A DNA stretch of 64,000 nucleotides from IMG/VR virus record IMGVR_UViG_3300046513_000235, positions 1 through 64,000 of that record, one strand, 5' to 3'. A model generated the notes under the pieces. It was not told the DNA's origin. It did no database searches and saw only the letters and a list, made by a program, of their open reading frames with translations. This document shows positions 1,815-53,431 of the stretch, piece after piece (within the stretch, counting starts at the first letter, position 1; each line of letters begins with the position of its first letter). The position numbers and the translations under genes are program-made. The DNA is from a virus.

Positions 1815-2528
1815 ATGCAAGTTCCGTCAATTGGTCGGATAGTAACCTATCTGCGCCCGCAATCATTCGAATTGAAAGGCATTATCGAAGTACCTGCTGT
1901 CATCACTAAAGTGCATACAAACAGTGTAGTAGACCTGCAATTGTTTGGAAAGGAATACGAAGACGATCCGTATCGCAGTGACGTGCGCTTTGGCCCAGAT
2001 GATTGTCAATGGAGATGGCCTATTATCTTGCGCGCTATTCCGGAGAAACTGCGTGGCTTTGAATTCGTATCACCTGAACATCAATTTGTTTCGGATGCAA
2101 AGCTCAAATTGCTTGGCATTGAGCGGAAACTTCCTGTGCGTGCTACAAAGAATTCAGCTGCCTATGATATGTTCTCTTTGGAGCACGGCTTAGTTAAGCC
2201 AGGAGAAAAGATGGAATTCGTTACTGATGTCAAAGCCTATATGCAGCCGGACGAATTACTGCTGGGCTTAAATCGTAGTTCGCAGGGTATTAAGATGGAT
2301 ATTACCTTGGCGAATACGGGCGCCGTAATTGATTCGGATTACTACAATAATCCCAAGAACGACGGAAGCATCAGTATCTGGTTACGTAACTTGGGTACGC
2401 AGCCTGTCAGAGTCAATGCAGGTGATCGCATTGCCCAGGTAATGTTTATTAAATACCTGACGGCTGACGGAGATAATGGTCATGGATTGGCTACCCGTGA
2501 AGGTGGCATCGGCCATACAGGCAAATAA
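1815..2528 (+). CDS. dut: dUTPase with an extra N-terminal domain
   Basis: Hydrolyses dUTP to dUMP, supplying the dTMP precursor and keeping uracil out of DNA. Starts at ATG 1815 after AAGGAGGAAGAG; 237 residues. The trimeric dUTPase motifs appear in order: AAYDMFS (115-121), NRSSQG (153-158), NTGAVIDSDYYNN (167-179), AGDRIAQVMF (202-211) and REGGIGHTGK at the end. About 95 N-terminal residues are not part of the usual roughly 145-residue enzyme; they resemble a small beta domain of unknown role. The next downstream polymerase has a UDG-like domain, so uracil handling may matter to this phage. Confidence 0.9.
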   Translation: MQVPSIGRIVTYLRPQSFELKGIIEVPAVITKVHTNSVVDLQLFGKEYEDDPYRSDVRFGPDDCQWRWPIILRAIPEKLRGFEFVSPEHQFVSDAKLKLLGIERKLPVRATKNSAAYDMFSLEHGLVKPGEKMEFVTDVKAYMQPDELLLGLNRSSQGIKMDITLANTGAVIDSDYYNNPKNDGSISIWLRNLGTQPVRVNAGDRIAQVMFIKYLTADGDNGHGLATREGGIGHTGK

Positions 2529-2533
2529 GGAGG

Positions 2534-2561
2534 CGTACCAGGGTGGGTGTGGAAGCGAAGC
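2534..2561 (+). repeat. interspersed CGTACCAGG element, copy 1
   Basis: CGTACCAGGGTGGGTGT followed by GCGAAGC 21 bases from the box start. It lies between the ribosome site and the start of the kinase gene and runs into its first codons. Confidence 0.8.
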
Positions 2562-3097
2562 AAGTGAAACTTTTACTTATTGGCCCCGATTGTTCTGGTA
2601 AGTCAACGTTGGCTAAGAAATTAGCCGAGCATTTTAGATTGCCGTTGTTCAGTAATCGTAGAGCGCCAGACGAACTGGCCGCGCTGCAAAGGGTTGTTGA
2701 CTTCGCAATTGACTGGTTTTCGGACTACGATGCCGGCTTTATTCTCGATCAGTGGCAATTCCCTGTAGACATTGTATATAATCGCGTGTTACGGGATCAG
2801 GGGTCTATTTTCGAGGGAATTGCCCCTTATCTTAAGCAGGACATGGACCGTTATAAGGTTCTTATCATCCATCTCACGGCCAGTGATGAAGTGCTCACGG
2901 AGCGTTTCAATAAACGGGGCGATGAGTTGTGGAACATTGGACAGATCCTCAAGGTGGCTAATGCGTATAAGCCCATACTCCAAGAGTTAAACTTGACGCA
3001 TACTACAATAGATACATCGCCGTTGACGCCTGAAGAAGTTTTCAGTTGGACTGTGGCAAGAATTACATCATTTTATGGAGGCGAAGAGAATGTGTGA
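2543..3097 (+). CDS. P-loop deoxynucleoside monophosphate kinase-like protein
   Basis: A 184-residue P-loop protein with Walker A GPDCSGKST at residues 14-22 and a thymidylate-kinase-like layout, including an LDQWQFPVDIVYNR segment after strand 3. Probably phosphorylates a dNMP (dTMP is likely after dUTPase), but specificity cannot be read from the sequence. GTG start 2543 follows AAGGAGG; the start region overlaps interspersed element copy 1. The 3' end overlaps queC by eight bases, implying translational coupling. Confidence 0.7.
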   Translation: MGVEAKQVKLLLIGPDCSGKSTLAKKLAEHFRLPLFSNRRAPDELAALQRVVDFAIDWFSDYDAGFILDQWQFPVDIVYNRVLRDQGSIFEGIAPYLKQDMDRYKVLIIHLTASDEVLTERFNKRGDELWNIGQILKVANAYKPILQELNLTHTTIDTSPLTPEEVFSWTVARITSFYGGEENV

Positions 3098-3929
3098 ACA
3101 ATGTGGAGAAACAAACAAGTTCCATCTGAAAGCCATGGAGGAAGCTCCAGTAAGAAAGGCTGTAGTATTGTTGAGTGGGGGAATTGATTCTTCCACATTG
3201 CTGGCCGCGGCTGTAGCGGAATATGGTGCACATAATGTGACGGCGTTATCCTTGATCTACGGGCAGAAACATGCCAAGGAGCTGCAAAGCGCCGAAGCTA
3301 TTGCGGCTTACTACTGTGTCCGTCATGTCGTCGAAGATCTTGGACTGGTGTTCAGATTCAGTGACTCGCCGCTATTATCCAGAAGTTCCCAGGAGGTGCC
3401 GGATGGGTCGTATGCTGATGATATTACCCATGAAGCAGATGGAATTTCCAAAACCTACGTACCTTACAGAAACGGACTCCTTCTCAGTTATGCAGCAGCT
3501 ATTGCTTACTCTATCGGAGCCGACGAAATCCATTACGGAGCACATGCAGATGATGCAGCAGGCAATGCTTACCCTGATTGCACTCCTCAGTTCTACTCCG
3601 CCCAAGCGCAGGCTGTGTTCGAGGGTACCGGAAAGAAGGTTAACATGGTTGCCCCCCTAATTAACATGTTCAAAAAGGATGTCGTTGCGTGGGGATTGGA
3701 ACTTGGCGTCCCTTACGAAAAGACATGGTCTTGCTACAACGGTAGTGACAAGCCCTGCGGTACTTGCGGCACCTGCGTGGATAGACGCATTGCGTTCTAT
3801 GCTAATGGTACCCAAGATCCACTGAAGTATGCTGGGGCGCTGCAACCTACAGAAGGTGTTATCAAGACACTGGAATCTCTGGGCTTGGAGCCTTGGGATT
3901 ATGTAACACTGCAGACGCATTCAGAATAA
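3090..3929 (+). CDS. queC: QueC, 7-cyano-7-deazaguanine (preQ0) synthase
   Basis: ATP-dependent conversion of 7-carboxy-7-deazaguanine and ammonia to preQ0. Starts at ATG 3090 after GGAGGCGAAGAGA. The PP-loop is LLSGGIDSST (residues 27-36). The zinc site near the C-terminus is CYNGSDKPCGTCGTC (C-x7-C-x2-C-x2-C). At 279 residues it is longer than typical QueC (about 220-235). Part of the excess is an N-terminal tail that starts MCEQCGE, with a C-x2-C pair that could bind metal. It sits between nucleotide-metabolism genes and the DNA transglycosylase. Confidence 0.95.
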   Translation: MCEQCGETNKFHLKAMEEAPVRKAVVLLSGGIDSSTLLAAAVAEYGAHNVTALSLIYGQKHAKELQSAEAIAAYYCVRHVVEDLGLVFRFSDSPLLSRSSQEVPDGSYADDITHEADGISKTYVPYRNGLLLSYAAAIAYSIGADEIHYGAHADDAAGNAYPDCTPQFYSAQAQAVFEGTGKKVNMVAPLINMFKKDVVAWGLELGVPYEKTWSCYNGSDKPCGTCGTCVDRRIAFYANGTQDPLKYAGALQPTEGVIKTLESLGLEPWDYVTLQTHSE

Positions 3930-3965
3930 GGCTCGTAGCAAAAGCGGAATCATCTATGCAAGCAG

Positions 3966-3984
3966 ACCACCACACCCTGGTACG
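3966..3984 (-). repeat. interspersed CGTACCAGG element, copy 2
   Basis: Minus-strand CGTACCAGGGTGTGGTGGT between queC and the zinc-ribbon gene. Here the box is one arm of a hairpin with plus-strand sequence up to 4002. No clear GCGAAGC box follows. Confidence 0.7.
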
Positions 3985-4008
3985 CTAGGGTCTGGTGGTA
4001 ATTTTAGT
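3966..4008 (+). terminator. hairpin between queC and zinc-ribbon gene, possible attenuator
   Basis: ACCACCACACCCT pairs with AGGGTCTGGTGGT (one mismatch) around a short loop, followed by AATTTTAG. The T-tract is weak, so it may attenuate rather than stop transcription into dpdA. Confidence 0.5.
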
Positions 4009-4025
4009 TAATCGGAGGAGATACA

Positions 4026-4223
4026 ATGGCATGCAATCATTGCACGGCCACGAAGAAGATCCCAGATGGTACTACCTATGGTTTGGTCGACATCCACGTG
4101 AGACGCGCCGGGTTGCGGCTGGAATATCAAGCCTATAGTGTTGACAGTAGCTTTGATATAGTTATACCTATCAAGTTCTGCCCTATGTGCGGAAGAAAAT
4201 TAACCCAGTCGGAGGAAACATAA
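4026..4223 (+). CDS. small zinc-ribbon protein next to dpdA
   Basis: A 65-residue protein with C-x2-C near the N-terminus (CNHC) and CPMCGRKL near the C-terminus, enough for one zinc ribbon. Ribosome site CGGAGGAG precedes ATG 4026. Its stop overlaps the dpdA start by one base (TAATG), so it is probably translated together with dpdA. A role as a partner in DNA modification is only a suggestion from context. Confidence 0.7.
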   Translation: MACNHCTATKKIPDGTTYGLVDIHVRRAGLRLEYQAYSVDSSFDIVIPIKFCPMCGRKLTQSEET

Positions 4224-5047
4224 TGAAGGTAGCTACCATCGTCCCACAACAGTTTTTGGAATTGACTCGCTCAGACGAGTATCACATGAGCTTGGCACAC
4301 CTGATTGGTGCTGCCGGCTACGAACCCTATACGCATTTCTTTAAACAGATTGGAAGGCTGCCTTACACATACCTGATTATGGATAATGGCTTAATCGAAG
4401 GACGTCCGCAGCCAATTGATGTCTTGGTTGAAAAGGCTCTTATGGTCGAGGCGGATGAACTCGTACTTCCGGATGTGTTTAAGGATCGTGCAAAGACGTA
4501 TGCTGCTGTGTATGATGCATTGGACTATTTGCACAAGAAGCAAACACTCCGGGGGCGTACAGGTCTCATGGCTGTGGCACAAGGCACGACCTTAGAAGAG
4601 TGGATCGAAAGTGCCAAGGATCTCCTGAAGCTGCCTATTCGGGCTTTGGGTATTCCTAAGGTGCTAGCTAATCTGCCAGGATATACTGACGGAGGTTGGT
4701 GGTTGAATCGTCTGGAGGCTCTTAAGGCGATTGAGCCGCTACGCATGCATAGCGATATCCAGATTCACTTACTGGGTTGCTGGGAAACTCCATTGGAGGC
4801 TAAGATGATCTCAAGAGCGGAGGCTGACGGTGTTATTACGCCTGTTAGAGGAATTGATAGTGCTTTGCCTTATGTATTTGCACGGGCAGGAATGAAAATG
4901 AGCGACGGACCGCGGCCGGATACAAGTCCCATCGACTTCCAGCTTGGAGGGGTTAACCGCAAGCTGCTGCAGGAGAACATTACGATGTGGAAGCATGAAT
5001 GCAATATCCAATCTGACGAAGATAATGTAACTAAGCTCTGGGTATAG
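4223..5047 (+). CDS. dpdA: DpdA-like DNA 7-deazaguanine transglycosylase
   Basis: Predicted to replace guanine in DNA by preQ0, as tRNA-guanine transglycosylases (TGT) do in tRNA. Starts at ATG 4223 after CGGAGGAA; 274 residues. TGT-like barrel marks are visible: MDNG (53-56), LPD (82-84), AQGTTLEEW (119-127), IHLLGCWETPLEA (181-193) and ADGVITPVR (201-209). The last two match the TGT 'LMGVGTPED' and 'D-x-V-x-P-x-R' regions, making D202 the likely nucleophile. It lacks the zinc-binding C-terminal part of tRNA enzymes, as phage DpdA proteins do. The full preQ0 pathway in the same genome supports the call. Exact product and sequence specificity are unknown. Confidence 0.88.
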   Translation: MKVATIVPQQFLELTRSDEYHMSLAHLIGAAGYEPYTHFFKQIGRLPYTYLIMDNGLIEGRPQPIDVLVEKALMVEADELVLPDVFKDRAKTYAAVYDALDYLHKKQTLRGRTGLMAVAQGTTLEEWIESAKDLLKLPIRALGIPKVLANLPGYTDGGWWLNRLEALKAIEPLRMHSDIQIHLLGCWETPLEAKMISRAEADGVITPVRGIDSALPYVFARAGMKMSDGPRPDTSPIDFQLGGVNRKLLQENITMWKHECNIQSDEDNVTKLWV

Positions 5048-5059
5048 GGAGGAATTAGC

Positions 5060-7588
5060 TTGGGAATAATTAGTCATTACGGACATCCGGAAGCGCCTTT
5101 TGCCCGAGTTAATGCCCAGACATTTCCGGATAAAGTCGACATCATGGTAATTGGTGATATACCTACGCCGATGGAAATCCGCAAAGGGCAATTTTTGTCG
5201 GGTCCTGCAACTGGCATACTTAAGGAAACATTGGAGAAGGTAGGCTTACGGGCTAAGGAGTTATCTATACATTACACTACGGCTATTAAGACAGCACATC
5301 CAAAGAAGAAGGGCAAAGCAACTCCTGCAGAGATAATTAGAGGACATCATCCCTTGATTATTCGTGAGATCCAAGCAGTTAAGCCTAAGATGGTTCTGAT
5401 TCTGGGGAAAACTGCCATGCAGACTGTTTATGGGGATACAACCATCAAGGTAGGCGCAGTGATGGGAAGAGTAACCCCTATTCCGGGTGTTTCAGAAGAT
5501 ATTATCTGTATGCCTGTATTGCATCCGGCCTTAATCATGAGATCACCAGCTGACTTTAAGCCTTTTCTAGCTTCGATAGAACTGGCCGCCAAGTTGTTCA
5601 AGGGAGGTTCTACGCATGATACAGGGGAGACGCAATGGCAAGTCTTGGACACAGAGACGAAGATTGAGGCAGCACTTAAACTCCTTGCCACTAAAAAAGA
5701 AGTTAGTGGTGATATGGAAACGACAGGGCTCGATTATCGTATCGCTGAATTCCTCGTACTGGGAATTGGCTTTGAGAAGAACAAAGTATTCGTTATCCCG
5801 CGGGAAATGCGGCATCGCGTACAGGACTTCTTCAATCTGCAAAACTTAACATGGACGTGGCAGCACGGAAAGTTCGATACGAAGATAATGTGGCGTCGTA
5901 AGTTGGCTATTGTACCGTTACATGACGATGCCATGTATGCCCACTATGTATTGGATGAAACATCCGAGCACAATCTGGAATACTTATCCAAGGTGTATTT
6001 GCAAGCGGAATCATACAAGTACAAGATGAATCAGAACTTCAAGGCAATTACCTTGGAGAATTACCCTGAATGGTTTGACGCTCTGTGTGAGCGCGTAGCA
6101 GTTGACTGCGACTATACGTATCAGCTGAAGCACGTACTGCTTGCTGAGGTAGAGAAAGATCCGGGTTTATCGAACGTATACCACAACGTTATCATGCCCG
6201 CAGCACCCTTCTTGGCACGCGTAGAACAAAATGGCATCCTAATTGACTCTGAACTGTTAGAGGAATATGGAGAGCTATATGTGAAGCGTCTAGAAGGTAT
6301 TATGGAAGAGATTGAGGTCCTGGCGAAGCCTGACTGGGATCCAACACAGTACATGGCGGATATGAAGGCCAAATCTGCCCCTGATAAGTTCAACCCAGGA
6401 AGTCCTAAGCAAATGTCTTGGATGGTTTTCAACAAGTTGAAGCTTAAGCCGAGACGTAAGAAAGGGGCCAGTACGGATAAAGATGTCCTGGGCTCTATTG
6501 AGGATCCTCCAGCATTAGTTAAGAAGGTGCTGGAGTACCGCACAGTGGCAAAGGAGTATAAGACTTATGTAGTTGGGCTATTGAAGTGGCGCGACACGGA
6601 TGGGCGAGTACGTACTAACTTTTCATTGCAGGTTACGGCGACGGGTCGTTTATCTAGCAAGGAACCTAATGTACAGAACTTACCAAATGCTTTTGGTGTG
6701 GGTAATATTCGTAAGGCCATTATCCCGCCCCAGTATTACATCATTATGGACTCTGATTATTCGGGAGCAGAACTGCGTTGGCTTGCTTGTATGAGTGAGT
6801 GTCCGGTATTGTTAGATATCTTCCTGAACGGTAAGAACCTGCATCATGAAACGGCAGTTGGCTTATACGGACCTAACTACACATCACAAGACAAGATGCG
6901 TGCGAAGGCTACTAACTTCGGAATACCGTATGGTCGAGAGGCTGGATCTTTCGTGGACGAGTTTAACATCAGCAAGGAAGAAGCCATCAAGATGATAGAT
7001 GATTGGTTAAACAAATACCACGGAGCTCGTGATTATCTATTATCTTGTGCTGCTGCCGTGAAGCAGGGAAAATTGCTTCGTACACCATTTGGGCGTCAGC
7101 GGCGATTTGGTTTGGTAACTGCTGAGAACTTACATGCCCTTCAGAACGAGGCACGCAACTTCCCTATCCAGTCACCATCGTCAGATACCACCCTAATTGC
7201 GGGGATGGAGCTGGAACCCTATGCTACTAAGATGGGTTGCCAGACTGTAAACTTAGTACATGACTCCCTTCTCTACTATGTGCCAGCTGAGCATGATTTG
7301 ATCTTGGAATTCGGATATCATGTTAACCAACACATGATCAAAGTACCGGAGCGTTTATTCGGTTACCAGGTTCCCTTCGCATCCGATACGGATATCGGAT
7401 TTACGTGGGATAAGAATGACTTGGTCAATCTGCAGTTCGATAGCCAATCAGTTATCTGGGAAGAAAAAGTTGCTGGGCAAAAGGTTGAGAAGACTACAAG
7501 CCTTAAGAATTGGTTAGAGGAAGGTATTGCGAAGCATAGCTATAAATACGAGAAGCAATGGTATAAGGATTTGCGTCCATTGTTCTGA
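5060..7588 (+). CDS. family A DNA polymerase with UDG-like N-terminal domain
   Basis: The replicative polymerase, 842 residues, TTG start 5060 after GGGAGGA. Residues about 25-180 resemble a family 4-type uracil-DNA glycosylase: GDIPTP (32-37), GQFLSGPATG (43-52), TTAIKTAHP (73-81) and a late HPA (155-157). The 3'-5' exonuclease has DMETTGLD (D218, E220) and QHGKFDTK. Polymerase motifs are DYSGAELR (motif A, about 565), RAKATNFGIPYG (motif B, about 612-623) and NLVHDSL (motif C, about 732). Motif C has HDS in place of the usual HDE. Phage polymerases with a UDG-like N-terminus (SPO1 type) are known; glycosylase activity cannot be assumed. Confidence 0.95.
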   Translation: MGIISHYGHPEAPFARVNAQTFPDKVDIMVIGDIPTPMEIRKGQFLSGPATGILKETLEKVGLRAKELSIHYTTAIKTAHPKKKGKATPAEIIRGHHPLIIREIQAVKPKMVLILGKTAMQTVYGDTTIKVGAVMGRVTPIPGVSEDIICMPVLHPALIMRSPADFKPFLASIELAAKLFKGGSTHDTGETQWQVLDTETKIEAALKLLATKKEVSGDMETTGLDYRIAEFLVLGIGFEKNKVFVIPREMRHRVQDFFNLQNLTWTWQHGKFDTKIMWRRKLAIVPLHDDAMYAHYVLDETSEHNLEYLSKVYLQAESYKYKMNQNFKAITLENYPEWFDALCERVAVDCDYTYQLKHVLLAEVEKDPGLSNVYHNVIMPAAPFLARVEQNGILIDSELLEEYGELYVKRLEGIMEEIEVLAKPDWDPTQYMADMKAKSAPDKFNPGSPKQMSWMVFNKLKLKPRRKKGASTDKDVLGSIEDPPALVKKVLEYRTVAKEYKTYVVGLLKWRDTDGRVRTNFSLQVTATGRLSSKEPNVQNLPNAFGVGNIRKAIIPPQYYIIMDSDYSGAELRWLACMSECPVLLDIFLNGKNLHHETAVGLYGPNYTSQDKMRAKATNFGIPYGREAGSFVDEFNISKEEAIKMIDDWLNKYHGARDYLLSCAAAVKQGKLLRTPFGRQRRFGLVTAENLHALQNEARNFPIQSPSSDTTLIAGMELEPYATKMGCQTVNLVHDSLLYYVPAEHDLILEFGYHVNQHMIKVPERLFGYQVPFASDTDIGFTWDKNDLVNLQFDSQSVIWEEKVAGQKVEKTTSLKNWLEEGIAKHSYKYEKQWYKDLRPLF

Positions 7589-7630
7589 CGTACCAGGGTG
7601 GTGTTGGGCGCGCAGCAAAGGTTCTCCGCG
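7589..7630 (+). repeat. interspersed CGTACCAGG element, copy 3
   Basis: CGTACCAGGGTGGTGTT starts one base after the polymerase stop. GCGCAGC replaces GCGAAGC, and a GCGCG/CGCGC stem encloses it (7609-7630). This is the clearest case where box 2 and its pairing partner differ together from other copies. Confidence 0.8.
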
Positions 7631-34396: not shown

Positions 34397-34795
34397 ATGC
34401 CAAGACGTGGAGGTAGACATTATGTACTGGTTAAAGGTGCTGAACGTGCTATGGAGGCTTTTAAGATCGAAATTGCCAAAGACTTGGGTTTATTTCACAA
34501 AATCACGGAGGACGGCTCCTATAAAGGCCTTACGACGCTCGAAGTAGGGCAAATAGGCGGCGAAATGGTACGGAGAATGCAGGCTGCTGGCGAATTTGCG
34601 ATCAAGGCACGCTTTGATATGGGTGAGCAGCGACTGATGCCCCCAGAAATTATGCCAGACCCAAAAGCGGTACGCGAAGTAACGAACAATGGAAACCCTA
34701 CATTACATGTAACAGGTGACGTACACGATGCTCCTGCTAGTGGACAGCAGTTCGCCAAGAAGGACGGCAAGAACGACCAACCATCAATCCACTGA
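34397..34795 (+). CDS. alpha/beta-type small acid-soluble spore protein (SASP) homologue
   Basis: 132 residues, ATG 34397. LVKGAERAMEAFKIEIAKDL and VGQIGGEMVRRMQAAGEF follow the SASP pattern (helix one with K-x-E-I-A, helix two with GGEMV-R). In spores these proteins coat DNA and shift it to an A-like form, protecting it. KIEIA resembles the site cut by the germination protease. SASPs are usually 60-75 residues; here helix two is followed by about 60 extra residues of disordered sequence. An own promoter and terminator flank it. It suggests phage DNA protection in, or control of, the spore. Confidence 0.85.
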   Translation: MPRRGGRHYVLVKGAERAMEAFKIEIAKDLGLFHKITEDGSYKGLTTLEVGQIGGEMVRRMQAAGEFAIKARFDMGEQRLMPPEIMPDPKAVREVTNNGNPTLHVTGDVHDAPASGQQFAKKDGKNDQPSIH

Positions 34796-35934: not shown

Positions 35935-36006
35935 CAGTTATTTTCAAGATGTAGGACTCCAGTGTGTCGTCGATTACCGTGGTAATAGTGGACACTAGGT
36001 AGGGAA

Positions 36007-36052: not shown

Positions 36053-36448
36053 TTATTGTGCCTGTTGTTCGTCACTTTCCTTTTGTTCGGTGACCACGTT
36101 TTGCAACTTGTACGTTTTTAATACGTTATGGACATAATTATAATTGGTGGACAATTCGATCGATATTTCCTTATTGGTCTTGCCGTTCAAATACATCGCA
36201 ATGATCAAATCCTTCTTCACGTTCTTTTCTTCAGCTACTAGTTCAATCTTATTCATGTTCACATAGTTCGATACGACGTTATATACGAAATTGTATCTAA
36301 CATCCATTACTGTCGAAATTTCCTTGACTGTCATTCCGATATCAAACATATTTTTCATCTTTTCGGATTTACTGGACGTTTCGTTCGACGTGATAGCGGC
36401 GATCATTTTGTCAGTTACTTTCTTTGCGTTTTCGATGTTCTTTTTCAT
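36053..36448 (-). CDS. two-HTH repeat protein, AT-rich paralogue
   Basis: 131 residues from ATG 36448 after AAGGTGGA. Two HTH modules: SEKMKNMFDIGMTVKEIS continuing to NVVSNYV, and KKDLIIAMYLNGKTNKEIS continuing to HNVLKTYK. Closely related to the protein at 38.1 kb, but AT-rich and on the opposite strand. Probably DNA-binding. The modules resemble the recombinase / sigma region 4 type of HTH. Confidence 0.75.
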   Translation of the reverse strand: MKKNIENAKKVTDKMIAAITSNETSSKSEKMKNMFDIGMTVKEISTVMDVRYNFVYNVVSNYVNMNKIELVAEEKNVKKDLIIAMYLNGKTNKEISIELSTNYNYVHNVLKTYKLQNVVTEQKESDEQQAQ

Positions 36449-36533: not shown

Positions 36534-36767
36534 GCTGTTTCGCACTGTAAGTTTGGAAACACTAGGACGCGGCTCGTTTAATCGGGGAAACCGTAACGCA
36601 CTAAACATTCAGCGTTTCTTTGATTAACGTGTTAACCGTTTACCCGGCCGCCGACGCCACATTGGCCCGTCTCTGGACTCCGCTAAACCGGTAACCGTTT
36701 CCTCCACGAAGCAGGGTGCGTCCTAGGGGAACGTGGGAACGGTTTCCCCGACGACTCGCCGAAGCCG

Positions 36768-36796
36768 TTGATATCTTAGATATTCTGTGATATAAT
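36768..36796 (+). promoter_or_regulatory. sigma-A promoter
   Basis: TTGATA, 17 bases, TATAAT. Upstream of the one-HTH gene at 37.0 kb with a long leader. Confidence 0.85.
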
Positions 36797-36970
36797 TAAA
36801 TTAAGAAGTAAGGAAGAGTTTCCAAGATTAACGAGATCCCCTTAGACCCGCTTACAAGGTTCCTCGCTACCCCTCCTGTTCAACAGGAAGCTCACCGATT
36901 CCCCCGGGAAACGTTTAATGGAGTAATCCGTTATTCACTTCTTCACCTAACTTGGCAACCACCAATACGC

Positions 36971-36992
36971 CCTATAAAACGTCAGCAATTGA
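36971..36992 (+). repeat. CCTATAAAAC-N7-ATYGA repeat 1
   Basis: CCTATAAAAC, 7 bases, ATTGA. Part of a possible hairpin through GTCAG and CTGAC. Lies in the leader of the one-HTH gene. Confidence 0.75.
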
Positions 36993-37036
36993 CTTCTGAC
37001 GGGGCGTGGTTGTAATAATCTAAGGGAGTGTTGAAG

Positions 37037-37246
37037 ATGGCAGTAACAGCAGCAAAGTTGTCGAAGTCGGAACAGATTAGGAGAATGTTTGACGCGGGTA
37101 TGTCGGTTGCGGAGATAGCCAATTCCATGCAAATTCGTTATCAGTTCGCGTACAACGTAATCTCCTACCACATCAAGACTAAGGGGGGTGTATCAGATGC
37201 TCCTCGGACTGATTATGATAGCAGTATTCATCGGGATGTGTGTTAA
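37037..37246 (+). CDS. one-HTH repeat protein
   Basis: 69 residues from ATG 37037 after AAGGGAG. One HTH module: SKSEQIRRMFDAGMSVAEIA, then IRYQFAYNVISYHI, matching the first modules of the 36.1 and 38.1 kb proteins. The tail after the module has no recognisable domain. Its 3' end overlaps the next gene in another frame by 50 bases. Likely a small DNA-binding regulator. Confidence 0.7.
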   Translation: MAVTAAKLSKSEQIRRMFDAGMSVAEIANSMQIRYQFAYNVISYHIKTKGGVSDAPRTDYDSSIHRDVC

Positions 37247-37412
37247 CGAGCAAACCAAGAGGCACTGCCGCAAAGGGAATCACGTGTGGAAACCTTATGG
37301 TCCACACAGAATGGAATGTAAGCATTGTCATGCGCTAACAGGTATTATTCCTCCTTCTCCTACCAACGTATACGAATATCCGACGACTGTGCGACGTTAC
37401 CGGCCTATGTAA
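37197..37412 (+). CDS. small membrane-anchored zinc-ribbon protein
   Basis: 71 residues, ATG 37197 after AAGGGGGG. Membrane segment MLLGLIMIAVFIGMCV, then HCRKGNHVWKPYG and CKHCHALTG with Cys/His spacing suited to zinc. The gene at 46.2 kb encodes a protein of the same plan (membrane segment, then C-KHGHRW and CKCCGK). Function unknown. Confidence 0.65.
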   Translation: MLLGLIMIAVFIGMCVNEQTKRHCRKGNHVWKPYGPHRMECKHCHALTGIIPPSPTNVYEYPTTVRRYRPM

Positions 37413-37423
37413 ACATTCCCGGG

Positions 37424-37445
37424 GAGGGTACCGCAAGGTACCCTC
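37424..37445 (+). terminator. GCAA-loop hairpin
   Basis: GAGGGTACC, GCAA, GGTACCCTC: a perfect nine-pair stem with a stable tetraloop, followed by TTATC. May attenuate or protect mRNA before the next gene. Confidence 0.55.
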
Positions 37446-37464
37446 TTATCTAAGGAGGATAACG

Positions 37465-37695
37465 ATGAAAAGATTGGTTAATTGGGTACTAGATCGGCTG
37501 TTTCCCGTAGTAACACCTCCCATTATTCCACCGCGAACCCAGAAAGCACGAGGATTGAACATAACTTTCCATAATGTAGTAACTTACGTGCCGAAACGTG
37601 AGAATAAGCCATTAGCTACTGTAATTTCGATAGAAGACCGCCGAAAAGCGGAATTCCTCGTATGGAGGGAGAATAACGCCCTTTTATTCGCCTAG
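37465..37695 (+). CDS. hypothetical small protein
   Basis: 76 residues, ATG 37465 after AAGGAGG. Basic, with PPIIPPRTQKARG and ISIEDRRKAEFLVWR. Not recognised. Confidence 0.6.
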   Translation: MKRLVNWVLDRLFPVVTPPIIPPRTQKARGLNITFHNVVTYVPKRENKPLATVISIEDRRKAEFLVWRENNALLFA

Positions 37696-37779
37696 GACGC
37701 TGGGTGTTTCATGGATTACCGTATTAATTTACTAAACACCGGGCGGTACGGATGGGTTATCCTATTCCACCACGAAGCC

Positions 37780-37880
37780 CAAGCATCCCAGGCCCATCTC
37801 CGCCGCCCAACATATGGCCTATTAAAACGCCTGCGATTGTCCTATGTACGCGCCCTATAAAACCCCTCACATCGACCCCA
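37780..37880 (+). repeat. composite repeat 1 with CCTATAAAAC repeats 2 and 3
   Basis: AAGCATCCCAGGCCCATCTC starts the unit. Repeat 2 (37818-37840: CCTATTAAAAC, 7 bases, ATTGT) and repeat 3 (37854-37875: CCTATAAAAC, 7 bases, ATCGA) follow. The GGCCCATCTCC box recurs at 38930 and 39728. Confidence 0.75.
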
Positions 37881-37979
37881 CCACGCGGGGCCCAACACAG
37901 CCACCACTTGGAGTACTTATACCCACCCTATCTAGGCCATTAACGGAAGTTCCACGCGTAATTTATTTTCAAAATAACG

Positions 37980-38008
37980 TTGATATTAAGTTTGTTATGT
38001 AGTATAAT
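37980..38008 (+). promoter_or_regulatory. sigma-A promoter
   Basis: TTGATA, 17 bases, TATAAT, followed by ATAAATATAG. Drives the GC-rich two-HTH gene. Confidence 0.85.
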
Positions 38009-38065
38009 ATAAATATAGAAGGAAGCAAACATTCCTTCAAATAAAAATCAAAGGTGGAATCCCAA

Positions 38066-38515
38066 ATGCAAAGAGCGATGGAAATCAACGTAAAGACCCA
38101 ACCAAAGGCAGCAGAGAAGGTGCTGGCAGACACAACTACCAGCAAGTCCCAGAAGATGAAGGACCTGTTCGACCTGGGTTTCGAAGTCAAGACTATTTCA
38201 GAAACCATGGGTGTCCGTTACAACTTCGCCTACAACGTGATTTCCAACTATGTCAACATGAACAAGATCGAATTGGTACAGACGGAGAAGTCCGGCAAGA
38301 AGGAACAAATCATCTCCATGCACCAAGCGGGCAAGACCAACAAGGAGATCAGCATCGAGCTCTCTACCAATTACAACTACGTGTTCAACGTTTTGAAAAC
38401 CTACAAAGCATCCCTGCCTAAGCTCGTCATCGACTTGACCAAGATCAACATCGATCCCGAAGTACACGCCGAAGACCCGGGACAGGGCGAAGTGGTGCAG
38501 GAGGAAGCTGAATAA
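38066..38515 (+). CDS. two-HTH repeat protein, GC-rich paralogue
   Basis: 149 residues, ATG 38066 after AAAGGTGGA. HTH 1 (about 26-62: SKSQKMKDLFDLGFEVKTIS then YNVISNYV) and HTH 2 (about 77-113: KKEQIISMHQAGKTNKEIS then FNVLKTYK), with an acidic C-terminal tail. Nearly the same HTH cores as the 36.1 kb protein, but with C/G-ending codons, so the copies diverged in base composition while protein sequence was kept. Likely binds DNA as a regulator. Confidence 0.78.
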   Translation: MQRAMEINVKTQPKAAEKVLADTTTSKSQKMKDLFDLGFEVKTISETMGVRYNFAYNVISNYVNMNKIELVQTEKSGKKEQIISMHQAGKTNKEISIELSTNYNYVFNVLKTYKASLPKLVIDLTKINIDPEVHAEDPGQGEVVQEEAE

Positions 38516-38754
38516 TGAAGAAGTTGTTGGTACTGCTCCTCGGCCTCTCGGTTGCGGCTTACGCAATCGTACCCTACACCGTCACACAGGTTGGCGGTGA
38601 AGGGTATTCCCTCAAGACCAAAAGTGGTATCGTCCTGCACATCAACCAAACGGACGTACTCAACAACAAACGCCTAACAGAAGGCGAAAAAGTGTATGGA
38701 ATATTTCTCCCCGCGGCCATGGATGAGTCCCACTTTGTAGGGGTTATAAACTAA
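38515..38754 (+). CDS. small secreted or lipid-exposed protein
   Basis: 79 residues; the start overlaps the preceding stop (TAATG). Signal peptide or anchor MKKLLVLLLGLSVAAYA, then a small beta-rich domain. Translationally coupled to the HTH gene. A role at the cell surface is possible (for example superinfection exclusion), inferred from the signal only. Confidence 0.65.
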   Translation: MKKLLVLLLGLSVAAYAIVPYTVTQVGGEGYSLKTKSGIVLHINQTDVLNNKRLTEGEKVYGIFLPAAMDESHFVGVIN

Positions 38755-38848
38755 CCCCTTCCCTTCGGGGTCTTAAGGCGGAAGGAGGTACTGCGCCCAC
38801 CCCTGGTATCCATCGAATACCGACCAACCTCATAGATGCGTCCTCTTT

Positions 38849-38874
38849 AGCCCACTCCTAGGGCTCTTTTTATT
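38849..38874 (+). terminator. terminator after the secreted-protein gene
   Basis: AGCCC, seven-base loop, GGGCT, then CTTTTTATT. A weaker ACCCC/GGGGT hairpin lies at 38754-38771. Confidence 0.7.
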
Positions 38875-38916
38875 CCCTCTTGCAGCCCACCGGCCAGGCC
38901 CAACTGGAACACCCAG

Positions 38917-39023
38917 CCGAAGCAACCTCGGCCCATCTCCACAGCCCTATAAAACGCACAAGAATACGCCCAACCTACCGGCAAGGCGCAACTTAAGGAC
39001 TATTAAAACAAACTGGGTTGACC
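38917..39023 (+). repeat. composite repeat 2 with CCTATAAAAC repeats 4 and 5
   Basis: GAAGCAACCTCGGCCCATCT starts the unit. Repeat 4 (38945-38966) has CCTATAAAAC and a degenerate second box; repeat 5 (38999-39021) has CTATTAAAAC and TTGA. It lies at the 3' end of a convergent gene. Confidence 0.65.
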
Positions 39024-39556
39024 TACTCGTGGATGCCCAACTCCAGCAACTCATTCTCAATCTCCCACTGTGACCACGTGAACGTTTGTAGGAAATCATA
39101 AGCGGCATCATAAGTACATCCACGCCCATCAACCGTAGCTTCTAGGTAAGCATGGGGACTCATCGACTCCAATATCTCCTCAGAACCCTCCTCACCGAAA
39201 CGATAATCCCTCATAAGTACCCCACAGAATACCCCATAATCCAACAACAGCTCTGCAGTCGACTGGTAGGCCTCCTCCTCTTCAACAGGTTCCTCCAACT
39301 GCTTTAACAAGGCCACCTTATACATCTCGAGTTCCACCAGAGCCCCTGCAAGAGTGGCAAGATATGGGATAGTTTCCTTGAGTGAATAGGATGTCCGCTC
39401 GAGAGTCCACTGGGGAGCATCGGCAGTCAATTCCCCTGATTCATACTCAAGGCATTCCCGGATCTTTTCCAAGATGTTATCCACCTGATGCAGACCCCAC
39501 TGCTCAATCACCATTCCCCATTTAGCCAATACGAACATTACGTTTTGCATTTCCAT
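39023..39556 (-). CDS. hypothetical acidic protein
   Basis: 177 residues, helical, acidic and Trp-rich; TAAGGAGGAATTAGTA precedes ATG 39556. LLDYGVFCGVLMRDYRFGEEGSEE and a C-terminal QTFTWSQWEIENELLELG. Not recognised. Own sigma-A promoter upstream. Confidence 0.7.
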   Translation of the reverse strand: MEMQNVMFVLAKWGMVIEQWGLHQVDNILEKIRECLEYESGELTADAPQWTLERTSYSLKETIPYLATLAGALVELEMYKVALLKQLEEPVEEEEAYQSTAELLLDYGVFCGVLMRDYRFGEEGSEEILESMSPHAYLEATVDGRGCTYDAAYDFLQTFTWSQWEIENELLELGIHE

Positions 39557-39594
39557 TACTAATTCCTCCTTAAGTTGATCTCTACTATACTTAT

Positions 39595-39623
39595 ATTATA
39601 ACACACATCTTCAGAAATGGCAA
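39595..39623 (-). promoter_or_regulatory. sigma-A promoter
   Basis: Minus strand: TTGCCA, 17 bases, TATAAT. Upstream of the acidic 177-residue gene. Confidence 0.75.
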
Positions 39624-39716
39624 CACCCGGGTGATAAGATTATTTCACAGGACTACCCAGATGGTTATGACGTCTGGAGACTTTGAGAATATCCTCTACC
39701 TCACCACTTTTAACAC

Positions 39717-39863
39717 CAAGCAACGCCGGCCCATCTCCGCGGACCAGTTGTGGTTGGCATTAAAACGCAGTCTATCGACCTATGCAGCGCCCATGTACAG
39801 CTCCTATAAAACGCTTGGCATTGAACCCAGTACAGAGCCTATAAAACGCCCACCATCGAGCCC
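39717..39863 (+). repeat. composite repeat 3 with CCTATAAAAC repeats 6-8
   Basis: AAGCAACGCCGGCCCATCTC, then repeat 6 (39758-39778, CATTAAAAC, ATCGA), repeat 7 (39803-39824, CCTATAAAAC, ATTGA) and repeat 8 (39838-39859, CCTATAAAAC, ATCGA). The 7-base spacer is kept in all three. Confidence 0.8.
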
Positions 39864-39935
39864 GTGACCCGGAGGCCGCTTCGCTGAGCCAATCTGGACA
39901 TAGTTGCTAGACATGAAATAAAATCTTATGAAATG

Positions 39936-39974
39936 GTGCAATTGAGAGTCTCTCTGGATATTATATAAATATAA
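39936..39974 (+). promoter_or_regulatory. phage-class promoter element, variant
   Basis: GTGCAATTG, 12 bases, then GATATTATATAAATATAAAC. Shares the GTGCAATTG left box with the late promoter at 34.1 kb. Before the HNH-like gene. Confidence 0.65.
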
Positions 39975-39995
39975 ACGCCATAAGGAGGACTTATA

Positions 39996-40433
39996 ATGGG
40001 AAAACAACCACAAGTAGTAAAGTCGGAGGATGTTAGTCGGTATCAGGGCTTTTGGATCTGTGATAATGGCACAATAATTGAGCGTTCTACTGGGAAGATT
40101 ATGCCCATCTATGAAAACGGGGGAATTCGCCTGCTTTGTGAGGATGGCTTAGTACGTAATACACAAGCTCATCGACTTATTGCGGCAGCGCACGTGGATA
40201 ATCCTGACGGATACAAATATGTTGGCTTTAAGGACGGCGATTCTACCAACCGTAATGCGGATAACTTGTTCTGGATCAAAACGTACAAGCAAATCAGTCA
40301 AACTACGCAGGATATCCTATCTTTATACCGTTCGGGTTGGTCTACCGTTGAATTAGCCCGTAAGTTTGTCAAAACTCCGCAGTACATCAATCGGCTCCTT
40401 AAGGATTTCCGTAAAAACGACTCCTCGCTTTAA
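39996..40433 (+). CDS. degenerate HNH-like DNA-binding protein with C-terminal HTH
   Basis: 145 residues, ATG 39996 after AAGGAGG. The middle matches NUMOD4/HNH_3 nucleases (HRLIAAAHVDN, then DGDSTNRNADNLFW), but the catalytic VNHKD is replaced by VGFKD, so the key Asn-His is gone. The C-terminal segment QDILSLYRSGWSTVELARKF then QYINRLLKDF resembles the HTH modules of neighbouring proteins. Probably a nuclease turned regulator. The double-HNH protein at 53.5 kb keeps the intact version. Confidence 0.75.
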   Translation: MGKQPQVVKSEDVSRYQGFWICDNGTIIERSTGKIMPIYENGGIRLLCEDGLVRNTQAHRLIAAAHVDNPDGYKYVGFKDGDSTNRNADNLFWIKTYKQISQTTQDILSLYRSGWSTVELARKFVKTPQYINRLLKDFRKNDSSL

Positions 40434-40450
40434 TTTCCTTCCTTTCAGAG

Positions 40451-40530
40451 GCTCTATGAACCCTATTTCAGGATCCCAAAAGTGTCTCCCCGTTGATATA
40501 TATAGGGAAATTCAATGGGTTCATAGAGAT
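40451..40530. repeat. inverted repeat flanking a 54-base spacer
   Basis: CTCTATGAACCC and GGGTTCATAGAG, extended by partial pairing of CCCTATTTC with GGGAAATTC inside. Could be an operator pair or a folded RNA. Confidence 0.6.
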
Positions 40531-40863
40531 TTACCAAAATTCCAATCCTTCAATGCCCGCCCCAAGCTTATTATATATATATAGCGCGGACGGGGTGTCA
40601 AGCGGTACGGTTCTCAATAGATAGGGTTCTGTATAGTTACGGTATCTATAGTCGGGATGAGTGTAGGGCCTCGTGTTTGTTAGCTATATACTCCAATAGA
40701 CACTCTCGTCTTATTTAGTCCTTCTATATACCTAGTTTAAAACACTGAAATAATGAAATATTGAAAAGTACTATATATATCAACGTGGAGATACGTTCAG
40801 TTTCCTATACTAAACAAATGCACATCTTGAAATCCTGAATCAGAGCTACCTACTTACGCCCGA

Positions 40864-40918
40864 TCAAAAGCAAAAAGAAACCGACCTATCAACAAATAAA
40901 TCGTTGGTAAGTCGGTTT
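40864..40918 (-). terminator. terminator of the leftward 41-47 kb operon
   Basis: AAACCGACCTATCAAC pairs with GTTGGTAAGTCGGTTT (two mismatches). On the minus strand it is followed by CTTTTTGCTTTT. Confidence 0.8.
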
Positions 40919-40925
40919 GTAATTG

Positions 40926-40948
40926 CCCTATAAAACCAAAGCAATTGA
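40926..40948 (+). repeat. CCTATAAAAC-N7-ATYGA repeat 9
   Basis: CCTATAAAAC, 7 bases, ATTGA, just outside the 3' end of the last leftward gene. Confidence 0.7.
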
Positions 40949-40949
40949 G

Positions 40950-41576
40950 TTATAGGTCGCGCAAGACATTTCTGCGGTCAAGTAAGTCATCTGGCTCTGT
41001 ACCGCTTTGCGGACTGTTGCTGACGGAAGACTCGTCTACACTTGTGTAATAAAGTTTGCCATCAATGTAAAGAGACTTAACAACAGAATCGTCAGCTATT
41101 ACCTCCAGAATGCGATCAGCTGGAAAATTAAATGCACCTCGACGGATACCATATAGAAGCTGTTCCGCCACATAGATACGATCGTCGTTGTCGTCATATT
41201 CAGCAAGCTCATTGACTAACCATTTAATGACATTACTAGTTACGAGTGCGGTAGTTGCAGCCTCCAGACGATACAGATTTGATACAGTGCCACGAGGTTG
41301 CCAGTCTGCCAACGTAGCAGGTAGGTCTGACGAGAAACAGAAGTCAGTTACCCTGACGGCAGGTGACTTAACCAATTCGAGGTCGTCATTGTAGATACGC
41401 TGGAAATAGTCGGCCTTGTCGATGAAATTGCTCCTAGGATTGATCTGCAATTCAGGTTCCGCTCCGTCTATCGATATTGCAATGATTACGTGTGTGATGT
41501 CCGGTCTTGCAGGTGAGCGTAAGGCTGAAACAAGTGCTTGTTTGGATACCTCGTGATTAAATCTGATCGATGTCAT
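40950..41576 (-). CDS. hypothetical protein
   Basis: 208 residues, soluble, mixed alpha/beta, with RIYVAEQLLYGIRRGAFNFP and a disordered Ser/Pro/Asp-rich end. Its start overlaps the upstream gene by 20 bases. Not recognised; last gene of the leftward operon. Confidence 0.65.
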   Translation of the reverse strand: MTSIRFNHEVSKQALVSALRSPARPDITHVIIAISIDGAEPELQINPRSNFIDKADYFQRIYNDDLELVKSPAVRVTDFCFSSDLPATLADWQPRGTVSNLYRLEAATTALVTSNVIKWLVNELAEYDDNDDRIYVAEQLLYGIRRGAFNFPADRILEVIADDSVVKSLYIDGKLYYTSVDESSVSNSPQSGTEPDDLLDRRNVLRDL

Positions 41577-42232: not shown

Positions 42233-42535
42233 TTAAGCCCAGGTGTTCTGGTATTGGGATGCCAAAGCTGCTTTCCGTTTGTTCCACTTCACCTTAGTGG
42301 CTTCTCCGCCACGCAGATGCATGATTGCTTTATGCATTTCCATGATACTTTCGACTTGACCAGCCAGTAGCGGATTAATGGTAGGTAAGAGTTCACGCAT
42401 ATCCTTGTGCACCGTTGAACTACTTACATTGAAATGGTAACCGGCCTGTCTTACTGTGCACCGTGTAGCTATGATGTGCTTTGCTACTGCAAGTGTCCGA
42501 TCATGTCGTACCTGTGCTGCTTTAATCTTCTTCAT
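42233..42535 (-). CDS. spoIIID: SpoIIID-like sporulation transcription regulator
   Basis: 100 residues, ATG 42535 after AGGAGGG. Matches SpoIIID, the mother-cell regulator of endospore formation: CTVRQAGYHFNVSSSTVHKD (HTH, about 27-46), ELLPTINPLLAGQVE and IMHLRGGEATKVKW. SpoIIID acts on many sigma-E genes and on sigK. On a phage it could steer host sporulation or repurpose the HTH. Identity is strong in the recognition helix and in the LRGGEATK tail. Confidence 0.93.
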   Translation of the reverse strand: MKKIKAAQVRHDRTLAVAKHIIATRCTVRQAGYHFNVSSSTVHKDMRELLPTINPLLAGQVESIMEMHKAIMHLRGGEATKVKWNKRKAALASQYQNTWA

Positions 42536-52270: not shown

Positions 52271-53431
52271 ATGGCTAGAAAGAGCAAGAACGACAATGAA
52301 ACAAACTTCTTGGGTGCAGAAGGTGAAGTAGTTGAAACGGCAGAAACCACGGAACAAGAAGGCGCGGTCGAAACCGAAGGACAGGAACAAGGCGTATACA
52401 TCGATGCAACCGCAGATAATGTACCTGCCGGCGACGCTGAAGCATCTGATACCGGAGCTGCTGGAGAAGTAACTGGCGAAGGTGCAGAATTCGATGGTTC
52501 CGCTCCTGATGCCGACGAAGCAGCTTCCGAAGCATCTGACGATCGTGTTTGGACTGTTGATGGCGCTACAGTTTCCAAATCGGAATTCATCCGCCACAAG
52601 TTCACCAAGGAAGATATGGGACGGAAAGAGATTTCCGAGAAATATGCAATTAACTACCGCACGGTTTATGGCGCTACCATGAACATGGTCAATGGTGCAG
52701 AAGCTTCCACCCGTGGACGTACTGCTTCCGCTACGAAGATCCTTATTACTGCCGATAACCGCGTTGTATCGTACGTGAAGGATGCCGAGTCCGGCGTTGA
52801 AATCCTCCATATCAACAATGCAGCAGTTGCTGACGATGCTTTGGTTGTTACACCAGCAGTTCTGGATGAAATTACCAATGAAGAAATTACTCCTGCGGTG
52901 CAGGAAGAGCTGACTGAAGTGGATCGCAACACTTGGATCAAACAACAGGTAGCCGCTGGTGTATCTCGTGGTGATATTGCTTCTGCGCTGGGTCTTTCCT
53001 ACGGCGTGATTTACGGTATCACTAAGGATGCTGAAGGCTCTTCGAACCGCCATGAAGTGGAAATCAAGGATGCTGAAGGAAACGTTGTAGAAACGATTTC
53101 CCGCAGTGAGCACATCCGCAGATTGTTCGCAACAGGCAAGACAAAAGCCGACATTGCGAAAGAGCTGGGTGTTGACTACCCTATCGTATGGGCAGCTTTG
53201 AAGGGTCTGAAGCCTGAATCCGAAAAGTTGGCTGATGCAATCGACAAGCTGGAAAAGTTCGCAGGCCAGGTTGAGCAGGCTACTGAGTTCGCTGAACTCA
53301 TCGCACAGCTGAAACTGATCACCTTGAAAGCCCCGGTTGAAGAAACCACTGAGGAAGCTGCGGCTGAAGAAGCTGCTCCTGCTGAGGAAGTACCGGCTGA
53401 GGAAGTTACGCAGGCTGAAGTAACTGAGTAA
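52271..53431 (+). CDS. acidic protein with three HTH modules
   Basis: 386 residues from ATG 52271 after GGGAGGAATTGAC. An acidic, disordered N-terminus (about 90 residues), then HTH 1 (SKSEFIRHKFTKEDMGRKEIS), HTH 2 (RNTWIKQQVAAGVSRGDIAS) and HTH 3 (SEHIRRLFATGKTKADIAK), then an acidic, Ala-rich tail of repeated EEV/AEE. The modules follow the same SExIR-x2-F-x8-IA pattern as the smaller proteins. The acidic ends are like regulators that contact polymerase or DNA-bound partners. Strong terminator downstream. Confidence 0.78.
   Translation: MARKSKNDNETNFLGAEGEVVETAETTEQEGAVETEGQEQGVYIDATADNVPAGDAEASDTGAAGEVTGEGAEFDGSAPDADEAASEASDDRVWTVDGATVSKSEFIRHKFTKEDMGRKEISEKYAINYRTVYGATMNMVNGAEASTRGRTASATKILITADNRVVSYVKDAESGVEILHINNAAVADDALVVTPAVLDEITNEEITPAVQEELTEVDRNTWIKQQVAAGVSRGDIASALGLSYGVIYGITKDAEGSSNRHEVEIKDAEGNVVETISRSEHIRRLFATGKTKADIAKELGVDYPIVWAALKGLKPESEKLADAIDKLEKFAGQVEQATEFAELIAQLKLITLKAPVEETTEEAAAEEAAPAEEVPAEEVTQAEVTE

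Follow-up and report, generated by a model that had tools for sequence, protein, structure and literature searches.

A one-way array of two-part repeats with a likely tandem helix-turn-helix reader in an uncultured phage group

The window analysed here, the first 64,000 nucleotides of the 64,993-base IMG/VR virus record IMGVR_UViG_3300046513_000235, carries nine short repeats within about 4 kb (positions 36,971 to 40,948), all on the plus strand. The record encodes terminase, tail, primase, DNA polymerase, ligase and sigma-factor genes. The repeats combine a left box, CCYAT(T)AAAAC, with a right box 7 bases downstream, ATYGA in the window. They follow one grammar, point one way, lie in the gaps between genes and are linked to genes for small proteins with two helix-turn-helix (HTH) motifs; among related phages, the right box is replaced at constant spacing. 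From sequence comparison, we consider it probable that the repeats are asymmetric binding sites for the phage's own two-HTH protein, with the first motif (HTH1) on the left box and the second (HTH2) on the right, and that they serve local transcription control. They likely form a directional operator-like array, with a tandem-HTH reader and modular half-site evolution in an uncultured phage group.

Results

Nine plus-strand sites share an exact spacing

Six of the nine left boxes are exact copies of CCTATAAAAC, a sequence absent from the minus strand of the window, and three are variants:

36971..36992, plus strand: site 1, CCTATAAAAC-gtcagca-ATTGA, exact, in the leader of the single-HTH gene; counterpart in the sister phage G001 at L124:6591
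37818..37840, plus strand: site 2, variant CCTATTAAAAC-N7-ATTGT; the G001 counterpart at L124:7440 has ATTGA
37854..37875, plus strand: site 3, CCTATAAAAC-N7-ATCGA, exact match
38946..38967, plus strand: site 4, CCTATAAAAC left box alone, with AATAC in place of ATYGA
38999..39021, plus strand: site 5, variant ACTATTAAAAC-N7-GTTGA, ending one base short of the stop codon of the minus-strand gene 39023-39556, likewise in G001
39757..39778, plus strand: site 6, variant GCATTAAAAC-N7-ATCGA
39803..39824, plus strand: site 7, CCTATAAAAC-N7-ATTGA, exact match
39838..39859, plus strand: site 8, CCTATAAAAC-N7-ATCGA, exact match
40927..40948, plus strand: site 9, CCTATAAAAC-N7-ATTGA, ending one base short of the stop codon of the minus-strand gene 40950-41576, as does its G001 counterpart at L124:11289

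ATYGA is thus exact in six copies, one base off in two (sites 2 and 5) and absent from site 4. The initial annotation had described nine one-way copies of one consensus, eight of them with a 7-base gap. Strand and clustering were borne out, but a single consensus was slightly generous, given the three left-box variants and the missing ATYGA of site 4. The spacing is stronger than had been claimed: counted from AAAAC, it is exactly 7 bases in all eight copies that have a right box, and the seeming off-by-one gap is due to an extra T inside the left box. The pattern YATT?AAAAC-N7-RTYG occurs eight times on the plus strand of the window and never on the minus strand. Of the 10 plus-strand cores, six are followed by ATYGA at a gap of 7, and none at any other gap between 0 and 30. 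Allowing up to three mismatches, 10 motif matches were observed where 3.97 +/- 1.78 were expected, a number that no shuffle reached. The sites are clustered, not spread evenly across the genome.

In the accessory region at 34-41 kb, both strands carry small genes, and several of these have sigma-A-like promoters to themselves. The sites fill five neighbouring gaps, in order divergent (36448(-)/37037(+)), co-directional (37695(+)/38066(+)), convergent (38754(+)/39023(-)), divergent (39556(-)/39996(+)) and convergent (40433(+)/40950(-)), and keep the same direction throughout. Sites are present in all five corresponding gaps of G001 (L124), and across seven orthologous site pairs the left box is the best kept part (97% identity), followed by the right box (89%), the N7 spacer (80%) and the flanks (71-81%). 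Gene calling put sites 7 and 8 within a small open reading frame (39661-39867); because its frame is interrupted in G001, both are counted as intergenic here. A site pointing the same way lies about 20-120 bp before several of the HTH-gene promoters. Two sigma-A-like promoters stand before HTH genes of the window:

36768..36796, plus strand: TTGATA-17-TATAAT, promoter of the 37037 operon
37980..38008, plus strand: TTGATA-17-TATAAT, promoter of the 38066 gene, about 105 bp downstream of site 3

That the flanks vary, which had been taken to argue against simple duplication, is correct; but a 31-nt block, AAGCAWCxYCGGCCCATCTCC (repeat family D3), recurs upstream of three site clusters (A, B and C), and the pattern is therefore partly one of ancestral duplication:

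37779..37809, plus strand: shared block upstream of cluster A
38918-38948: further copy of the block
39716-39746: further copy of the block

The window and G001 do not have the same gene content beside the sites: cluster A is followed by an additional gene, and cluster C by a different one.

Other functions for the repeat itself were considered and rejected. A coding reading, TAT AAA ACN NNN NNN ATY GAN for YKTxxI(D/E), would explain both the 7-base gap and the isoleucine wobble, but the TATTAAAAC forms contain a stop in that frame, the frame is broken in the G001 copies, and neither a start nor a ribosome site fits, as read from the sequences and not from a formal codon test. As an RNA structure, the repeat has no consensus base pairs across 15 copies; among six folded sites, only site 1 clearly beat shuffled sequences (hairpin z -3.1), and Rfam gave nothing near gathering score in 34.0-43.5 kb. 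By eye, phage-specific promoters were rejected for want of a -35-like element at constant distance 5' of the left box, and minus-strand terminators (a hairpin followed by GTTTTATAGG) because the stems are too weak except at site 1.

The left box clusters beside tandem-HTH genes in related phages

Searching IMG/VR with an alignment of the HTH proteins returned 16 loci. The left box CCYAT(T)AAAAC lies near HTH genes in most of these loci and is present in at least eleven records of related, uncultured phages. Its CCYATAAAAC form was found in 12 of 17 virus records picked by HTH protein, mostly on one strand per record (whole-record counts, forward/reverse: window 6/0, G001 5/1, G298 0/5, G300 0/3, G301 8/0, G303 1/5 and G306 6/0), and G305 has the CCYATTAAAAC form at 0/5; the motif read backward, used as a control, gave at most 3 matches per virus record. 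With a simple gene caller, 58 of 63 strict left boxes near HTH genes were intergenic. Among the intergenic left boxes of ten multi-site phages, window sites 7 and 8 included, 54 of 55 lie on the majority strand, where random strands gave a maximum of 45 in 20,000 trials. All six left boxes of the window fall within 3 kb of a tandem-HTH gene, although such zones make up 13% of the record (P ~5e-6), as do all eight of G301 (P ~7e-7). Counted across related genomes, the motif clusters beside tandem-HTH genes, and its right box differs between phages.

Two distant tandem-HTH phages carry repeats of other kinds. L131, a contig assigned to Herbinix that encodes a terminase and a related tandem-HTH protein, has a perfect 32-nt repeat, TAAGTAAGTAAAGTAAAGGGTGGGTGGGTGGG, at 7230-7261 and 7596-7627, in two gaps beside the HTH gene. 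In L130, a phage without CCYATAAAAC clusters, AT-rich 17-bp tandem iterons lie at 2578-2752, near a tandem-HTH gene and terminase.

The right box changes between phages at a constant offset

The right box is ATYGA in the window and G001, NTTGA(GTA) in G298, GATTGGA in G303, MCGCGR in G306 and NCGCGAG in G301, always at the same offset. Mean information over five phages at offsets +9 to +12 is 1.43, 1.02, 1.07 and 1.18 bits, against a maximum of 0.87 in 300 flank shuffles. Because the right box is phage-specific, a scan of viral contigs for the exact motif gave mostly single chance matches; the effective probe is the left box, alone or in pairs. Two scans, made with no protein information, looked through 2.9 million viral contigs for left boxes paired at a distance of 14-44 bases; they returned 22 and 12 stretches on 31 distinct contigs. 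Ten of these contigs encode tandem-HTH proteins, seven already known from protein searches and three new (G314, G329 and G331), the match in G331 being weak and broken by stops. Several other contigs have the box within short tandem repeats of other kinds, or apparently by chance.

Tandem-HTH proteins are the candidate readers

Three genes beside the sites encode members of the HTH family:

38066..38515, plus strand: two-HTH protein of 149 amino acids, best candidate reader (family profile; two-HTH models)
36053..36448, minus strand: two-HTH paralogue of 131 amino acids, second candidate reader (family profile)
37037..37246, plus strand: single-HTH relative of 69 amino acids (family profile)

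The initial annotation had named the HTH proteins at 36.1, 37.0 and 38.1 kb as the nearest readers. Two HTHs were recognised in those at 36.1 and 38.1 kb, but the gene at 37.0 kb encodes only one. Across 26 aligned tandem-HTH proteins, the HTH1 recognition helix, RYN(F/H)(V/A)YNV, has a mean entropy of 0.52 bits, versus 1.21 for the HTH2 helix. A pairing of the RYNH class with CGCG right boxes (G301, G306 and partly G304) was considered and is undercut by G303, which has the RYNH class with GATTGGA sites; for this reason the RYNF class fits better as reader, on numbers too small to settle the question. Several HTH paralogues per phage are common.

Searches by tblastn with the window 38066, G306 439 and G306 2548 proteins gave no match among 50,697 phage genome records. 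Two plasmid records match across one HTH only, and tandem-HTH relatives were found in just 2 of 295 genomes scanned from the order of the Herbinix-assigned genome.

Two further groups of HTH genes were seen. Far from the cluster, the window encodes a larger protein with several HTH repeats of the tandem-HTH kind (52271-53431, plus strand; E ~3e-10 to the tandem-HTH profile), with a relative at L164:2201-3076 (minus strand); it is possibly a longer multi-HTH reader. G314 (L187) has several tandem-HTH genes or fragments within 5 kb (2475-7227), some interrupted by stops, and its left boxes often follow GGACA; this looks like an expanding or decaying family.

The two-HTH protein resembles Cbp1 and Cbp2

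At E <= 0.01, the sole NCBIfam match of the 38066 protein is Cbp1 (NF040595; E 1.3e-8, 34.8 bits). All 26 phage proteins match Cbp1 at E <= 0.01, and no other NCBIfam family is common to them. AlphaFold models built from 7 and 26 sequences both contain two HTH units (predicted local distance difference test, pLDDT, 73.8 and 74.2), the mutual placement of which is uncertain (predicted template modelling score, pTM, 0.45 and 0.38). In the PDB, either model is matched best by 2LVS, a clustered regularly interspaced short palindromic repeat (CRISPR) repeat-binding protein; 2LVS was also found in a profile search of PDB sequences, spanning both HTHs (E 0.016). For the deeper-alignment model, the DNA-bound bipartite domain of Tc3 transposase comes second among the PDB matches. 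Cbp1 and Cbp2, which bind CRISPR DNA repeats in crenarchaea, have three or two HTHs in tandem, and the phage protein has two, in sequence and in model.

The HTH domains of Cbp1 align 5' to 3' along its asymmetric repeat, and its binding is lowered by the double mutations A17/A18, T19/T20 and A22/A23 (PMC10883916). Sulfolobus islandicus repeats, GCTAATCTACTATAGAATTGAAAG, have a GAATTGAAAG end (PMC3718332). GAATTGAAAG includes ATTGA, the right box of the window, an overlap that may be coincidence because it spans five letters only. A regular repeat-spacer layout was not seen among the sites studied, on which no CRISPR-array finder was run.

Other features of the accessory region

A leader of about 230 nt (36797-37036), from the sigma-A-like promoter to the single-HTH gene, is unusually conserved, with a possible AAGAAGT/ACTTCTT closing pairing, and may be a regulatory RNA. 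At 40870-40926 lies a terminator-like hairpin, T-rich on the minus strand, whose stem pairing is kept in G001 despite two-sided changes. A second one-way intergenic repeat, roughly GTGTTTCNTNGATTACCGTNTTAA, occurs on the plus strand at 35950-35986, 36610-36636 and 37690-37728, with similar G001 copies at L124 4925, 5490 and 7315. The window also encodes a small acid-soluble spore protein (SASP; Pfam SASP E 1e-13) and a SpoIIID-like regulator (E 4e-27), at 34397-34795 and 42233-42535, which suggests a spore-forming host.

Discussion

We propose that each repeat is a two-part asymmetric site for the phage's own tandem-HTH protein, encoded at 38066-38515 and/or 36053-36448. HTH1, with its near-invariant recognition helix, would read the invariant left box CCYAT(T)AAAAC, and the more variable HTH2 the phage-specific right box 7 bases downstream. 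With the two modules about one helical turn apart, one monomer would cover about 22 bp in a fixed direction. An invariant half-site with an invariant HTH1, and a variable half-site with a variable HTH2, are what would be expected of a bipartite monomer, and it is from this match that we infer the pairing. With many intergenic sites around the HTH genes, the protein would coat this stretch of DNA, and its small transcription units, those of the HTH genes among them, would be regulated or insulated; the outcome would be transcriptional control during lytic growth.

Several observations weigh against this proposal. In most phages site orientation tracks the direction of the HTH genes, but no clear relation is seen in G299, G305 and G314, where both strands carry HTH genes, and the clustered motif is not present in the distant tandem-HTH phages L130 and L131. 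Left boxes occur without a clear right box in G299, G300, G305 and G314. The RYNF and RYNH protein classes occur together in some phages, which makes the actual reader of the sites uncertain, and some sites lie at gene 3' ends, distant from any promoter. As for the structural likeness, the 38066 protein does not reach the curated Cbp1 cut-off of 140 bits, and the Foldseek matches of the two models to 2LVS (E 0.11 and 0.09) are weak. The Cbp1 model also gives matches below cut-off in the control genomes Thermotoga, Methanocaldococcus and Haloferax, and we therefore speak of resemblance, not membership.

A further, less probable reading is a Cbp-like local chromatin or self-marking system encoded by the phage. 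One half-site would be universal and kept, and the other swapped as a lineage address code, so that the array silences or protects the phage's own early accessory region and ignores or interferes with relatives.

By analogy with the stoperators of cluster A mycobacteriophages, the sites might instead be transcription roadblocks conferring type-specific immunity or exclusion. In those phages, a monomeric repressor places two domains on an asymmetric site whose orientation matters for stopping elongation, and its C-terminal domain is the more diverse (PMC9283540). The variable parts here are likewise the right box and HTH2, the sites are present in many copies of mainly one orientation, and several follow the 3' ends of plus-strand genes. 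But L5-type sites are genome-wide, whereas those described here cluster in one region, flanked by genes that run both ways. Moreover, no tyrosine or serine integrase or ParA-type ATPase (PF00589, PF00239, PF13614) was found in ten records, five of them 57-65 kb and several fragments, and lysogeny is therefore not supported. We regard such a role as unlikely.

Iterated binding by one protein, with the HTH proteins as nearest readers, as the initial annotation put it, is strongly supported by the clustering, the right-box turnover and the DNA-only scans; the replication origin offered there as one form of it is not. A one-way array beside the gene of the presumed binding protein is the classical initiator-iteron layout, and the 22-bp site length and the tight 22-36 bp spacing in G300, G305 and G299 would suit iterons, or another initiation landmark, with the tandem-HTH protein as initiator or helper. 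In the window, though, the sites are dispersed, alone or a few together, over about 4 kb and five gaps, with no contiguous iteron block, cumulative GC skew does not turn at 37-41 kb, and HTH genes often come as several paralogues per phage, which together make an origin quite improbable.

The sites could also be linkers left by duplication or recombination, marking accessory-gene swap joints and read by no protein, as the block upstream of clusters A, B and C and the gene differences between the window and G001 would allow. This is very unlikely, as two short boxes and the distance between them are conserved amid intervening and surrounding bases that drift, and passive duplication does not predict replacement of the right box at constant offset. 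Centromere-like partition or genome-packaging landmarks are the least credible reading. Directional direct repeats near a DNA-binding protein gene do resemble partition sites, and the HTH region lies within several kb of the terminase genes in the window, L130 and L131, but the ten records gave no ParA-type ATPase and the sites are dispersed between coding genes.

A two-part site read by a tandem-HTH protein would be apparently an undescribed, virus-specific DNA-binding system in a little-known uncultured phage group; a text search for the left box with 'phage' found no relevant literature. If the proposal holds, the protein-site system has no relative in the phage genome records covered by the three protein searches. 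It would also offer a natural series for testing directly the DNA-recognition rules of tandem-HTH proteins, since one HTH and its half-site are constant across it and the other HTH and half-site vary.

Comparison with known systems

Paired-type bipartite domains (Tc3 transposase, Pax, Sleeping Beauty) likewise join two HTH subdomains on one bipartite site, and fold and sequence matches to them are weak; a transposase catalytic domain and transposon ends were not seen here. Iteron-initiator pairs of plasmids and phages share directional direct repeats near the presumed binder's gene, whereas the phage sites are dispersed over several gaps, with no recognised initiator domain and no GC-skew turn. 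The cluster A repressor and its stoperators (L5, TipsytheTRex) come close in having a two-domain monomer and a directional asymmetric site in many genome copies (PMC9283540, PMC6550527). They differ in that the second domain of the repressor is the Stoperator domain, where the phage protein has a second HTH of the same family, and in that stoperators are 13-14 bp long, genome-wide and in temperate phages, whereas the present sites are about 22 bp, clustered and in phages in which no integrase was found. Cbp1 and Cbp2 are, like the phage proteins, small tandem-HTH proteins with an asymmetric repeat read one way, and the phage right box shares ATTGA with Sulfolobus repeats, which have it at their 3' end. 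The phage sites differ in lying in intergenic gaps, with a right half that varies by phage, instead of in a repeat-spacer array; the host is archaeal there and the phage bacterial here, and the phage proteins score far below the equivalog cut-off. If the proposed reading is true, the resemblance may tie a bacterial virus group to the archaeal CRISPR-repeat binders, with a bearing on the origin of Cbp1-like proteins.

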